The notes beneath the pieces were generated by a model. That model was not told the DNA's origin, did no database searches, and was given only the letters and a program-made list of their open reading frames with translations. Below are positions 1,878-40,217 of a stretch of DNA of 40,989 nt, in pieces. Source of the DNA: a virus. Every line of letters begins with the position of its first letter. The first letter of the stretch is position 1. Both the position numbers and the translations under genes were made by a program. The stretch covers positions 1-40,989 of the IMG/VR virus record IMGVR_UViG_3300033388_002556; one strand, written 5' to 3'.

Positions 1878-2914
1878 TGCCAACGCCCATAAATATCAGC
1901 GCATCCAGGGGCGCCGCAATCCTGGGCTTATCAAAATGGTCAACGCCGACAAAAGTATGGCTCCAAATCATGGAGGCCCGAAAGCCCGGATTTTGTGAAA
2001 AAAATAATTATGAATTCCCGGTATTTGTAGATAGTGCACAAATTCGTTGGGGGAAGGCGTTCGAAAGTGCAATAATTGATTTAGCAAGCAAAAAACAGAA
2101 TAGTGAAATAGTCAAAAGAGAAAAATTATGTTCACTCGGTGGATTTAATCCATTTATTACATGCCATATTGACGGAGAATACGATCCATTTTCTGCAAAT
2201 AAAATTTTACACGAAGGAAAAACAACCTCAATTTTCTACTACCGTGACAATTTCGGCGAACCCGGAACCGACAAGATCCCCGTGGAATATCAAATTCAAT
2301 GCCAGCATCAAATGATTTGTACAGGCGCGGAAAAAGTTATTTTGTCAGTTTTAGTTTTTCCCCGCAGGGTTGATGATTGGGACGCGATGGGATGGCGAAC
2401 ACATTTTGATGGTACGGAATATATACTGATAGATAATAAAAAAACAGTTATGGCAAATATAGTAATTGAACACCCTGAAAATTGGGCGCATACCCTCGAT
2501 CAAATGGGCTACTTCCATCAATACGAAATCCACGCAAATCCAGAATTACAAGCCCTCATGATTTCCAATTACAAAAAATTCTGGAAAAATAATATCCTTA
2601 AGAAAAATCCACCGCAGCCAAAAAATTATGACGATATCCGGGCCCTTGTTCGAAATCCTATCGGAACAATAATTGCTGACGAACACATGGAGCGTGTAGT
2701 CTCCGAATACAAAAATATAAAATCTGAAATAGGCGATTCCGGAACACTTGCGAAACGAATTGATCAGATAAAAGTTGATATATTAAAATTCATGGAGTCC
2801 GCCAGCTCAGTGGTTGACGACGATACCAAAGATAAATGGATTTTGCGAGATCGCGCAGGTAATAAAATTGCGAGTTATGGCAAGAATAAAAAAGGGAATA
2901 TGGTTTTTAGATGA
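1877..2914 (+). CDS. YqaJ-type recombination exonuclease
   Basis: The 345-residue protein has the YqaJ/lambda-exonuclease layout of the PD-(D/E)XK fold. SASRGAAILGLSKW lies near residues 8-21, RWGKAFESA supplies a glutamate at 63, CHIDGEYDP the metal aspartate at 99, and HEGKTT the E-x-K pair at 113-115. A Q-rich helix (EYQIQCQHQM) follows, as in the family. Such enzymes resect 5' strands of double-stranded ends for single-strand annealing or replication-coupled recombination. The product of 3071-4015 and the SSB-tail protein downstream are likely partners. The C-terminal 60 residues are basic and less conserved. Confidence 0.9.
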   Translation: MPTPINISASRGAAILGLSKWSTPTKVWLQIMEARKPGFCEKNNYEFPVFVDSAQIRWGKAFESAIIDLASKKQNSEIVKREKLCSLGGFNPFITCHIDGEYDPFSANKILHEGKTTSIFYYRDNFGEPGTDKIPVEYQIQCQHQMICTGAEKVILSVLVFPRRVDDWDAMGWRTHFDGTEYILIDNKKTVMANIVIEHPENWAHTLDQMGYFHQYEIHANPELQALMISNYKKFWKNNILKKNPPQPKNYDDIRALVRNPIGTIIADEHMERVVSEYKNIKSEIGDSGTLAKRIDQIKVDILKFMESASSVVDDDTKDKWILRDRAGNKIASYGKNKKGNMVFR

Positions 2915-3078
2915 AAACGCCTGGTAGTTCAAAGTGTCTGCAAAAAGAGTGTTTTAATATTGGCCATAAAAAACAGGACATTTATAGAACGGTAGAACAC
3001 CTATTTACCGGTAGGCAATGCAGGTTCAATTCCTGTCCAGACGAATTAAAAAAATTAAACGAGGTGACTAATGATTAA
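2911..3078 (+). CDS. Small Cys/His protein; overlaps tRNA-like sequence
   Basis: A 55-codon frame whose ATG overlaps the exonuclease stop and whose end overlaps the next gene by eight bases. It has C9, C14, H19, C37 and C42, spaced as a possible zinc site. Part of its DNA (about 2975-3043) carries tRNA-like D-loop and T-arm sequence (see findings), so coding could be secondary there. The tight overlaps favour translation. No homologue is recognised. Confidence 0.45.
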   Translation: MKTPGSSKCLQKECFNIGHKKQDIYRTVEHLFTGRQCRFNSCPDELKKLNEVTND

Positions 3079-4015
3079 AAACGGCTTAAATCCAAGATTT
3101 TCAGAAATAGGCAAAATTAAAATAGGCGGCAAAGGTGAAACACGTAAATCAAAAGACGGAAAAGTCTATCAACTTCCAGTAAGATTTGAACATTTTGTCG
3201 TCACAACCACGGAACGGGGACCCGACGGTAATTTTATAATCAATCAAGATATTATGAAAAAACTTGGCCCTGAGCCAAAAGAAATCTCGATCCGCCTTCC
3301 TTTTGACGATATTGACATGAATTTTTTTACATCGTTTCAATATTATCATGGAAAAAAACTCATATGTCACGGCGACGGAGAATACGCCAAAAGAATTGAT
3401 AAAAACGGGACTGAAAATAAAATCAATTGCAATCCAGACGAGTGCAAATTTTTACAAAACACAATCAACGAAGTAAATACAAACGAAAAATGCAAAGTAT
3501 CCGGAATTCTGTCTTGTCATATTCCGGCGTCCATGGAGGTCGGCGCCGTTCATAGATTCAGGACGCATTCTTTTCATTCTGTTTCCGGAATGCTGACATC
3601 GTTAAAATATTTTAAAAAAAATACAAACGGCATTTTGCAAGGACTCCCTCTAAAATTAAAATTTATCAAAAAAGCTACCCCGGAACATGGTAATGTAAAT
3701 ACGGTTGCAATTGTCTTGGATGGTGTTGAAATGTTAAAAATGAGAGAATTGGCATTTAACGAGTATAAAAACAGAACCGAACTCGGCATAAATATGAAGG
3801 AAATTGAAAATACTGCTATTGAAAGCGGATTTATGGTTGATACCGATGATCCCGCAGATGTCCAGGATGAATTTTACAACGATTCTCCGGTAATAGATAT
3901 AACTGAAAAACCAGATCCCGGAGTTGACGCCGAGGAAACAACGGAAAAATTAGAGAATGAGAAAAAAACTGACAATAGCGAAAATAAAGAAAAAGAGGAA
4001 GGGCATTTATTATGA
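3071..4015 (+). CDS. Gp3-like / recombination directionality factor-type metal-binding protein
   Basis: This 314-residue protein matches a phage family often named Gp3-like, after the phiC31 recombination directionality factor, or 'metal-binding protein'. Signs are FQYYHGKKLICHGDGEYA near residues 89-106, then a cysteine set (C120, C125, C141, C149) and an S-x-x-S-rich core (HRFRTHSFHSVSGML). The last 60 residues are acidic and disordered. With no integrase in view and an exonuclease and SSB-tail protein on either side, a role in DNA recombination or annealing is more likely here than integrase control. A ribosome site (GAGGTG) precedes the ATG. Confidence 0.65.
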   Translation: MIKNGLNPRFSEIGKIKIGGKGETRKSKDGKVYQLPVRFEHFVVTTTERGPDGNFIINQDIMKKLGPEPKEISIRLPFDDIDMNFFTSFQYYHGKKLICHGDGEYAKRIDKNGTENKINCNPDECKFLQNTINEVNTNEKCKVSGILSCHIPASMEVGAVHRFRTHSFHSVSGMLTSLKYFKKNTNGILQGLPLKLKFIKKATPEHGNVNTVAIVLDGVEMLKMRELAFNEYKNRTELGINMKEIENTAIESGFMVDTDDPADVQDEFYNDSPVIDITEKPDPGVDAEETTEKLENEKKTDNSENKEKEEGHLL

Positions 4016-4284
4016 AAAAAATCTATGATCTCGCAGTCCGGACCGGAGAATATACGAACGCTTCCGGAGAAACAAAAGGCCGCTACACAAATGTTGGGGC
4101 AATTATGCAAAAAGATGACGGCGGAAAAATGATATTCATGAACAGGACATTTAATCCCGCCGGTGTTCCAAATCCCGAAAATAGAGACAATATTATAATT
4201 TCTATGTTTGCGCCAAAGGATAAAACTGACACTCCGCCACCCCCGGAGGCGCCGCCGCCAGATGATAGTGACATACCATTTTAA
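4012..4284 (+). CDS. Small protein with an SSB-type C-terminal tail
   Basis: A 90-residue protein. Residues 1-70 look like one compact beta domain (DLAVRTGEYT, KGRYTNVGAIM, MFMNRTFNPAG-like strands). After a proline-rich linker it ends in DDSDIPF, matching the acidic D-D-D-I-P-F tip by which bacterial single-stranded DNA-binding proteins recruit repair and replication enzymes. It overlaps the upstream Gp3-like stop by ATGA. It probably coats single strands, or recruits host SSB partners, during phage replication. The tail is seen directly; the DNA-binding role is inferred. Confidence 0.65.
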   Translation: MKKIYDLAVRTGEYTNASGETKGRYTNVGAIMQKDDGGKMIFMNRTFNPAGVPNPENRDNIIISMFAPKDKTDTPPPPEAPPPDDSDIPF

Positions 4285-4336
4285 ATTTATAAATTTATTA
4301 TAAACCTTGCTTTAAATAAAAAACGGTGGCGGCCTT

Positions 4337-4654
4337 ATGAATGAAAAAAAAGCTTATATTCTAGCCTTAGATCTCTGGATCTGGCATTATGAAAACCCAC
4401 TTACAAATCACGAAGATTATCCATTATTTAAAGAATTAAAATTTTCCAGAATGCAAGGACAGTGCTCCATTTGGAATCATTTTGACAATTGCGAATCGTG
4501 CCCGATGAACATAGATCCCGATTATGGCGGCGGGTGTTTAGACATGATACGCCTAAAAGCAATAGCAATAAGACATCATAATACTACTCGCTACAAGCGA
4601 ATCTGTTCTATTTATATCAATGCGTTTAATAAAAAACTGGAATCGTTTTCATGA
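4337..4654 (+). CDS. Conserved small phage protein, unknown function
   Basis: A 105-residue protein rich in Trp, His and Cys (GQCSIWNHFDNCESCPMNID, then GGGCLDMI), with four cysteines that could bind a metal. A GGTGGCGGCC stretch stands before the ATG. Its stop overlaps the methyltransferase start (ATGA at 4651), so the two are likely co-translated. The 50 bases before it are AT-rich with no clear promoter. Function unknown. Confidence 0.6.
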   Translation: MNEKKAYILALDLWIWHYENPLTNHEDYPLFKELKFSRMQGQCSIWNHFDNCESCPMNIDPDYGGGCLDMIRLKAIAIRHHNTTRYKRICSIYINAFNKKLESFS

Positions 4655-5310
4655 AAATAGAGAAAAATAAAATATTGCTCGGTGACTGCATGGATTTAAT
4701 GGCCGAAATGCCTGATAATTATATTGATTTGGCTATAGTAGATTGTCCTTATGGGACAGGTTGGGACGGTGGCAACATAATAACAAATCCGAAAAGACCC
4801 TGTAGGGATTTTAGATTGAATAATCCTAAATATAAAAAAAAAGAATGGGATGTAAAACCGGATAAAAAATATTTTGATGAATTATTTAAGGTATCAAAAA
4901 ATCAAATAATATGGGGGGGAAATTATTTTATTGATTTTTTGGAATCAACTCCATGTTTTATTTTTTGGGATAAACGATATGAAAATCAAAAGTTTGCTGA
5001 TGGGGAATTAGCTTGGACTTCTTTTAAAACAGGAATAAAAAAATTTACACTTAGCAGCAAGGCAGAGACAAGAGGTGGATTATTGCGTATTCATCCAACT
5101 CAAAAACCGATTGCTCTTTACAGATGGATATTACAAAACTACGTAAAACCAGGCCAACTAATATTAGACACCCATTCCGGAAGCGGCTCCCTTGCCTGTG
5201 CGTGTCACCTAGAAAAATTTGATTTCATCGCCATTGAAAAAGATCCGGATTATCACAAGTCCAGCACAGAGAGATTTGAAACATTAAAGTCTCAAGGCGT
5301 TTTATTTTGA
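4651..5310 (+). CDS. DNA methyltransferase (N6-adenine/N4-cytosine, beta class), intact copy
   Basis: The 219-residue enzyme has the order motif IV, target region, motif I typical of the beta class. It opens with ILLGDCMDLMAEMPDNYIDL, the catalytic motif is DCPYG rather than the usual DPPY, IHPTQKP lies near residue 147, and the SAM-binding DTHSGSGSLACACH lies near 172. It may methylate phage DNA against host restriction or mark origins. A second, damaged copy lies at 39693-40217 with the usual DPPY. The stop overlaps the TTG start of the primase-helicase. The cysteine in DCPY may alter activity. Confidence 0.88.
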   Translation: MKIEKNKILLGDCMDLMAEMPDNYIDLAIVDCPYGTGWDGGNIITNPKRPCRDFRLNNPKYKKKEWDVKPDKKYFDELFKVSKNQIIWGGNYFIDFLESTPCFIFWDKRYENQKFADGELAWTSFKTGIKKFTLSSKAETRGGLLRIHPTQKPIALYRWILQNYVKPGQLILDTHSGSGSLACACHLEKFDFIAIEKDPDYHKSSTERFETLKSQGVLF

Positions 5311-8662: not shown

Positions 8663-9451
8663 ATGTCAGATGTAAATTACATAGATTTATTTTCCGGAAT
8701 AGGGGGCTTTTCACTCGGCGCATATTGGGCCGGGATGAAATTCAAAAATCATTATTTTAGTGAAGTGGATAAATATTGTATAGAACTATATCAAAAAAGA
8801 TTTCCTGATGCAATACCGTTGGGAGATATTACAAAAATTAATACTGAGGAGTTGAAACGATATGGAAAAAATTGGATTATTACAGGCGGATTCCCATGTC
8901 AAGACATCTCAATCGCCGGAAAAGGGGCAGGAATTATCGGAAAAAGGTCTGGCCTTTGGTTTGAATATTGGAGAATTATTAGAGATTTACGACCACGATT
9001 CGCAATCATGGAAAATGTCGGGATGCTTGTTCATAGGGGATTACGCGAAGTCTTGGGAAGTCTTGCTGAAATCGGGTATAATGCAGAATGGACAACTTTT
9101 CGAGCTTGTCAAATTGGATTGCCCCATCAACGGGAAAGAGTGTGGATTGTTACCTACCCCGAACGCTCTGCAGGTAATAAGTCAATGGGCAAGCGCGGAA
9201 TATCTTTTAAAAAACAACGGTGTGCGGGATTCAGGGGTCAAAGTTGGGAGCAATTTGAGCTGGTTACTGAGCAAATGGCACCTTCAAAATGGCGGGTCAA
9301 GGGAGAAAATTATTCCAGACCCTTGCTTGTCAGAAACGATGATGGGTTACCCAATAGGATGGACCGACTTAAAGGACTCGGAAATGCAATTGTCCCTCAA
9401 ATAGCACAATTATTATTTGAACAAATAAAACCTTACTTACAGGAGGCTTAA
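8663..9451 (+). CDS. DNA (cytosine-5) methyltransferase
   Basis: A 262-residue enzyme with the ordered C5-methyltransferase motifs: I (DLFSGIGGFSLG, 8-19), IV (GGFPCQDIS with the catalytic Cys79), VI (MENVG, 116-120), VIII (QRERVWIV, 156-163) and X (RLKGLGNAIVPQ from 235). The target-recognition stretch between VIII and X is very short, about 70 residues. It probably protects phage DNA from host enzymes. A 180-codon frame lies wholly inside it in another register (8862-9404). Confidence 0.92.
   Translation: MSDVNYIDLFSGIGGFSLGAYWAGMKFKNHYFSEVDKYCIELYQKRFPDAIPLGDITKINTEELKRYGKNWIITGGFPCQDISIAGKGAGIIGKRSGLWFEYWRIIRDLRPRFAIMENVGMLVHRGLREVLGSLAEIGYNAEWTTFRACQIGLPHQRERVWIVTYPERSAGNKSMGKRGISFKKQRCAGFRGQSWEQFELVTEQMAPSKWRVKGENYSRPLLVRNDDGLPNRMDRLKGLGNAIVPQIAQLLFEQIKPYLQEA
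8862..9404 (+). CDS. Overlapping frame inside the Dcm gene, phage-family-like product
   Basis: This 180-codon frame lies in another register inside the cytosine methyltransferase gene. Its product reads SQSWKMSGCLF, LLKSGIMQNGQLFEL, GLLPTPNAL and finally MGYPIGWTDL...LSLK. That order resembles phage proteins I recall with SWKTSQ...SGMMRNG...LPTP...MGFPxGWTD blocks, which are found beside or joined to Dcm-type enzymes. GAGGAG lies ten bases before the ATG. Either it is a real overlapping gene that adds a target or accessory domain, or the pattern is imprinted by the conserved Dcm codons. Confidence 0.5.
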   Translation: MEKIGLLQADSHVKTSQSPEKGQELSEKGLAFGLNIGELLEIYDHDSQSWKMSGCLFIGDYAKSWEVLLKSGIMQNGQLFELVKLDCPINGKECGLLPTPNALQVISQWASAEYLLKNNGVRDSGVKVGSNLSWLLSKWHLQNGGSREKIIPDPCLSETMMGYPIGWTDLKDSEMQLSLK

Positions 9452-39692: not shown

Positions 39693-40217
39693 TCAAATCT
39701 CTCTGTGCTGGACTTGTGATAATCCGGGTTTTGCGTAGTTTTGTAAAATCCATCTGTAAAGTTTTATCGGTTTTTGAGTGGGATGAATGCGTTTTTCTCT
39801 TTTTTCATCCTCTATAAAAGCTCCGCTCCATAACTGTTTATATATTCTTGTTGTCCCTTTAATTGAACAATAGGCACATTCCCCATCAGCGCGAGGGCTT
39901 TTCCCCGTCTTTTTGTCCCAGACAATTAGTTGTGAAAATGTTGGTAACCATTTATTAAAATATTGCATCCCCCAAATTATTTGATTTTTACTAATTCTAA
40001 ATAATTCATCAAAATATATTTCGTCTGGAACAAAATCCCATTTTTCAATCATCTCAGAAGTTTTATATGTATTATCTTTATATCCAAACTTATTACCAAA
40101 ACTGTTAAAGATCCCATAAGGCGGATCAACAATAGCCAAATCGATATAATTATCAGGCATTTCGGCCATTAAATCCATGCAGTCACCGAGTAATATTTTA
40201 TTTTTCTCTATTTTCAC
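39693..40217 (-). pseudogene. Truncated second copy of the DNA methyltransferase
   Basis: From a GTG overlapping the terS stop (GTGA), the first 34 residues nearly equal those of the intact enzyme at 4651-5310, with the usual DPPYG motif. The frame shifts after NYAKPG and stops: about 90 bases that encode the SAM-binding DTHSGSGS segment in the intact copy are missing. The following 60 bases again match the 3' end of the intact copy, out of frame. Without motif I it cannot be a working methyltransferase of the normal type; it could still bind DNA. Confidence 0.82.

Follow-up and report, generated by a model that had tools for sequence, protein, structure and literature searches.

The window analyzed here, a 40,989-nucleotide stretch of viral DNA (IMG/VR record IMGVR_UViG_3300033388_002556), contains a locus that we assign, with a probability of about 84%, to a C5-cytosine DNA methyltransferase formed as an α/β heterodimer from overlapping reading frames and probably acting as an orphan. 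Computational analysis shows that both frames are coding, that α lacks a target-recognition domain (TRD) and motif IX, that motif IX is located in β, and that the TRD region is constrained in the β frame among relatives. The β subunit very probably supplies the DNA-recognition part that is missing from the enzyme.

The α frame encodes a C5-methyltransferase protein lacking a TRD and motif IX

The features of the α frame are as follows.

8663–9451, plus strand: α subunit, C5-cytosine methyltransferase with motifs I–VIII and X, 262 amino acids (PF00145, M.HhaI match, AlphaFold)
8690–8710, plus strand: α motif I (FSGIGGF), read from the sequence; F10 and G12 are invariant in α alignment A3
8891–8911, plus strand: α motif IV with the catalytic PCQ (FPCQDIS); P78 and C79 are invariant, and F77, Q80 and S83 are at least 90% conserved
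9011–9019, plus strand: α motif VI (ENV); E117 and N118 are invariant
9128–9145, plus strand: α motif VIII (QRERVW); R157 and R159 are invariant
9212–9367, plus strand: α residues 184–235, low-confidence linker (pLDDT about 43) over which the β frame reads TRD and motif IX
9374–9400, plus strand: α motif X (GLGNAIVPQ), which shares its DNA with the C-terminal end of β; G240 and N241 are invariant

The α protein has the hallmarks of a C5-cytosine methyltransferase, i.e., the PF00145 domain and the PCQ, ENV, QxRxR and AdoMet motifs. The PF00145 match (E = 1.8e-47) covers the first half only and reaches position 168 of the 324 positions in the profile, and the match of α residues 3–165 to M.HhaI residues 11–171 likewise ends after motif VIII. 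Between motifs VIII and X, α contains neither a recognizable TRD nor motif IX, and it therefore departs from the canonical single-chain Dcm/HhaI enzymes, which hold both in the same chain; at 262 residues it is also shorter than M.HhaI (327 residues). An earlier reading of the locus from sequence only had described motifs VI to X of the Dcm frame as intact, which is correct for motifs VI, VIII and X but not for motif IX, which sits in the nested frame; motifs I and IV of the Dcm frame are intact too.

An AlphaFold model of α, built on a 60-sequence alignment, has pLDDT values above 90 for 152 residues, with most of the motif I–VIII domain and of the motif X end above this value, and superimposes on M.HhaI (PDB code 2uyc) end to end over 197 residues (2.4 Å, Z 23.4). 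The predicted fold resembles that of M.HhaI, with residues 184–235 as its single disordered segment.

A nested +1 frame encodes β

The β features lie entirely within the Dcm-like α open reading frame (ORF) of 262 codons.

8846–8851, plus strand: candidate Shine–Dalgarno (SD) sequence of β, GAGGAG, 10 nt 5′ of the ATG
8862–9404, plus strand: β subunit, nested ORF of 180 amino acids that holds the TRD region and motif IX (open frame beginning with M, relatives in tblastn, phrog_1008, wobble evidence)
9156–9317, plus strand: β TRD region, residues 99–152, variable after TP at β 99–100, with pLDDT 71–85 at about 101–170 and β-frame wobble in relatives
9318–9371, plus strand: β motif IX (DPCLSETMMGYPIGWTDL); P154, E158, M161, G162, P164 and T168 are at least 90% conserved

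The nested 180-codon frame is real and coding. It runs from ATG to TAG in the +1 register relative to α, and upstream it is closed by a TGA at 8853–8855, so that the frame is open from 8856, 6 nt before the ATG. Synonymous shuffles of the α gene of the window carry a mean of 8.3 stops in the β frame, and not one of the 300 shuffled genes keeps it open, which places the openness of β above chance. The frame, its own GAGGAG-preceded start and all five of the peptide blocks quoted in the sequence-only reading were recovered. The start region with its purine-rich SD is common to the window and loci L003, L087 and L090, the start being the same in the first three and displaced by one codon in L090; in the class of L098 and L102, β starts at an ATG with GAGG, 48 codons before motif VIII. 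Across 152 loci, an SD with ATG for β is present in 56, a moderate excess over the 32 expected. In a gamma-proteobacterial group (L145–L165, about 3994–5020), almost the entire α gene is spanned by an open β frame, and the β ATG lies a few bases 3′ of the α start codon.

Motif IX of β includes MMGYPIGWTDL. PHROG 1008, labelled 'DNA methyltransferase', matches the β of the window with E = 2.3e-8 and all 72 of the 72 aligned β sequences, and it appears therefore to be equivalent to the β family; phrog_1008 has no matches in 14 control genomes, though ten of these carry PF00145 enzymes. The PHROG label is silent on a nested subunit without catalytic motifs. No family for β was found in Pfam or NCBIfam, and a β profile retrieved nothing from the PDB sequences. 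Modeled alone with AlphaFold, β reaches a mean pLDDT of 61.8, with about 50 in the N-terminal half, and the model has no fold match in the PDB. Because of this low confidence and missing match, the TRD is identified by its position, by motif IX and by evolutionary evidence rather than by its fold. The suggestion that the nested product serves as an outside TRD fits these observations but is incomplete, since the product carries motif IX as well.

The nested arrangement is widespread in phages

A tblastn search with β matched 21 phage records, 19 of them over at least 80% of the β length. The β query also retrieved 80 loci from IMG/VR, and an independent search with the α protein yielded 49 loci. 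Among all loci fetched, 154 full loci combine α motifs I–VIII and X with a +1 β ORF containing motif IX, and this nested set includes loci found by the α query only. Loci found by the β query are a biased sample with respect to openness; the α-query set and the wobble data presented below are independent of that bias. In annotated collections, the hosts comprise Bacteroides, Porphyromonas, Vibrio, Pseudomonas, Acinetobacter, Microcystis, Mycobacterium and Salmonella. A second branch is present in Enterobacteriaceae genomes, and its β matches 222 phage records. The nested arrangement is thus found in hundreds of phages, and the description of the locus as a rare case of two long conserved proteins from the same DNA has to be abandoned.

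In the records examined, annotation over the nested stretch is mostly limited to α (e.g., L082, L136, L137, L139, L142 and L143). In Mycobacterium phage Llama and close relatives (L083, 2501–3260), α is divided into two annotated ORFs, gp74 and gp75, unlike in phage SG4. The window itself contains two more DNA methyltransferase ORFs, at 4651–5310 (plus strand) and 39693–40217 (minus strand), both assigned to phrog_67 and the latter situated between the genes for the small and large terminase subunits; this contractile-tailed phage consequently has at least three methyltransferase loci.

Constraint on the two frames before and after motif VIII

In the +1 arrangement, position 1 of the α codon is the wobble position of β. 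Divergence at 4-fold sites was compared in close pairs with 70–98% α identity. For α it is 0.21–0.32 well upstream, 0.07–0.11 over the 60 codons leading up to motif VIII, and 0.02–0.045 between codons +15 and +60 past this motif, a segment over which the β-frame value is 0.28–0.31. Both frames are therefore restrained before motif VIII, and after it mainly β, which means that the earlier view of both registers being under constraint holds for the first region and only in part for the second. Among 65 disjoint pairs, position 1 changes more than position 3 after motif VIII in 51 and the reverse is seen in 9 (p = 3e-8). In the region preceding the overlap the balance is the opposite, with position 1 the faster in 5 disjoint pairs and position 3 in 34. 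The nearest relatives of the window are too diverged (57–62% α identity) to give a clear wobble signal for the window itself, positions 1 and 3 being about equal after motif VIII.

As canonical controls, E. coli K-12 dcm and 13 Kluyvera C5-methyltransferase genes show no wobble switch after motif VIII: the values for positions 1, 2 and 3 are 0.14, 0.09 and 0.50, position 3 being fastest. Each of these genes carries 7–29 stops in the +1 register. In TRD-less phage genes, no β-frame stop occurs in the 48 codons leading up to motif VIII, with 336 expected, or in codons 0 to +34 after it, with 116 expected. Stops in this register of dcm homologues had been put forward as a test of the nested reading, which comes through it, the canonical genes having stops and the TRD-less phage genes none.

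Openness of the β frame upstream of motif VIII does not by itself prove the nested reading, since close relatives of the single-chain type share it. In L130, L132, L138 and L140, there are no +1 stops opposite motifs VI–VIII, fewer than synonymous shuffles predict, so that openness opposite these motifs is weak evidence when taken alone; these four loci may have inherited it from an ancestor of the nested kind.

Motif IX relocates between frames

Motif IX is in β in most loci and in α in one monophyletic group of about 13 loci (L097, L098, L099, L101, L102, L105, L106, L109, L114, L116, L122, L125 and L128), which is derived within the nested family and in which the TRD region is still under nested-frame constraint. 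The peptide LNPxFVExMMGYPIGWT is read in the α frame in L098 and in the β frame elsewhere. Residues 236–280 of L098 α align without gaps to M.HhaI 270–314, which spans motifs IX–X; the score is weak by itself, with order and register both right. In Streptomyces phage Sebastisaurus (L084), α stops after motif VIII and the β chain consists of TRD, IX and X. Within this L084 locus (2299–3352), the β frame is open from 2456, and gene 35 is annotated only from 2768. Such changes would require no more than small insertions or deletions, located between TRD and IX or between IX and X. Since motif IX switches frame while the motif set stays complete, we argue that both proteins form one enzyme.

Alternative explanations

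A programmed +1 frameshift near motif VIII, yielding a fusion of α with TRD and IX and perhaps followed by a second shift back to motif X, would account for the switch of the constrained frame at about motif VIII, and two shifts would restore the order TRD–IX–X. We consider this quite unlikely, however, because the β frame is restrained and free of stops already 45–60 codons before motif VIII, because the window, L003, L087 and L090 share an ATG with SD and the L098/L102 class opens with an ATG and GAGG at codon −48, and because the two shifts would have to be of opposite direction. Very unlikely, too, is that β, though genuine, has a function of its own, for example in anti-restriction or regulation, and that α is an enzyme that is degenerate or works alone. 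This would agree with the missing match of β to a known fold; on the other hand, β contains the very motif that is absent from α, motif IX moves between the two frames within one clade, and the β of L084 carries motif X in addition.

That the nested frame is an untranslated shadow, with the Dcm motifs forcing similar +1 peptides, explains part of the similarity: SGIMQNG and LLPTP sit opposite conserved α residues, HMM matches are found opposite motifs VI–VIII in single-chain relatives, and synonymous shuffles keep some of the score (mean 5 bits, mean of per-locus maxima 22 bits). The real scores, however, have a mean of 41 bits and lie above every shuffle in 78 of 79 loci. That hits to the product might be no more than shadow frames of dcm had been named as grounds for refutation, but the remainder of the similarity is no such shadow: after motif VIII, α residues vary while β-frame wobble shows coding, the TRD and motif IX are absent from α, and canonical dcm genes are interrupted by stops in this register. 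We regard a mere shadow as extremely improbable.

Model of a two-subunit enzyme

In the heterodimer model, α, read in the Dcm frame, would form the catalytic and AdoMet-binding domain, with motifs I–VIII and X joined by the disordered linker. The β subunit would initiate at the internal ATG at 8862, its overprinted N-terminal part overlapping α motifs VI–VIII, and would contribute the TRD and motif IX, and the heterodimer of the two chains would correspond to a complete single-chain enzyme of the M.HhaI kind. The window genes that were examined include no restriction enzyme, which makes an orphan enzyme probable; it would probably methylate the phage DNA and so protect it against host restriction. 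Independent initiation, the heterodimer, its activity, its target sequence and the anti-restriction role are parts of the model that we infer.

Relation to known methyltransferases

The architecture of the window locus, compared by reported motif layout, is of the M.EcoHK31I type and as such already known. The window has a second ORF nested in another frame; for M.EcoHK31I, Lee, Kam and Shaw reportedly found in 1995 that the gene of its small subunit likewise lies within that of the large subunit, in a different reading frame. M.EcoHK31I (YGGCCR) resembles the window in having motifs I–VIII and X in the large subunit and IX in the small one; it is bacterial with a known target, whereas the window locus belongs to a phage. 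The larger M.EcoHK31I subunit also has the predicted TRD, and the smaller one only motif IX (PMC3404938), whereas in the relatives of the window the TRD region is under nested-frame constraint and α is disordered there. Because β is constrained and α disordered after motif VIII, we claim the same type of architecture, but not the same domain assignment. M.AquI (CYCGRG) is naturally split beyond motif VIII, with part of the variable region and motifs IX and X in the small subunit (PMC3404938); the window locus is split likewise but keeps motif X in α, and gp34/gp35 of Sebastisaurus come nearer to the AquI pattern. Compared with the single-chain enzymes M.HhaI and M.HaeIII, whose catalytic domain resembles α, the window locus has TRD and motif IX on a second polypeptide.

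A limited literature search found no paper on nested phage C5-methyltransferases, which is weak evidence of novelty; within that literature, three points look new: the phage-wide spread, the placing of the TRD in the nested frame on evolutionary grounds, and the movement of motif IX between frames. The nested phage class as such is well supported. More tentatively, and in our estimate doubtful as a whole, these loci may represent a large class of phage C5-methyltransferases that has mostly escaped annotation and has a nested, overprinted specificity subunit, in which motif IX, and in some cases X, has been moved by small insertions and deletions, and in which the subunit may be a separate specificity module able to evolve or pair independently; independent pairing of the nested subunit with catalytic subunits is speculation.

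The overlap on the same strand extends over 180 to about 300 codons, both proteins are conserved, and phages infecting a wide variety of hosts have it. As annotation usually keeps one frame, the specificity half is missing from many records, and assays of α alone could wrongly call such enzymes inactive. Furthermore, the results suggest looking for the TRD of M.EcoHK31I-like enzymes in the small subunit. Comparison of the canonical, split and nested versions of this one enzyme makes the origin and the cost of overlapping genes testable.
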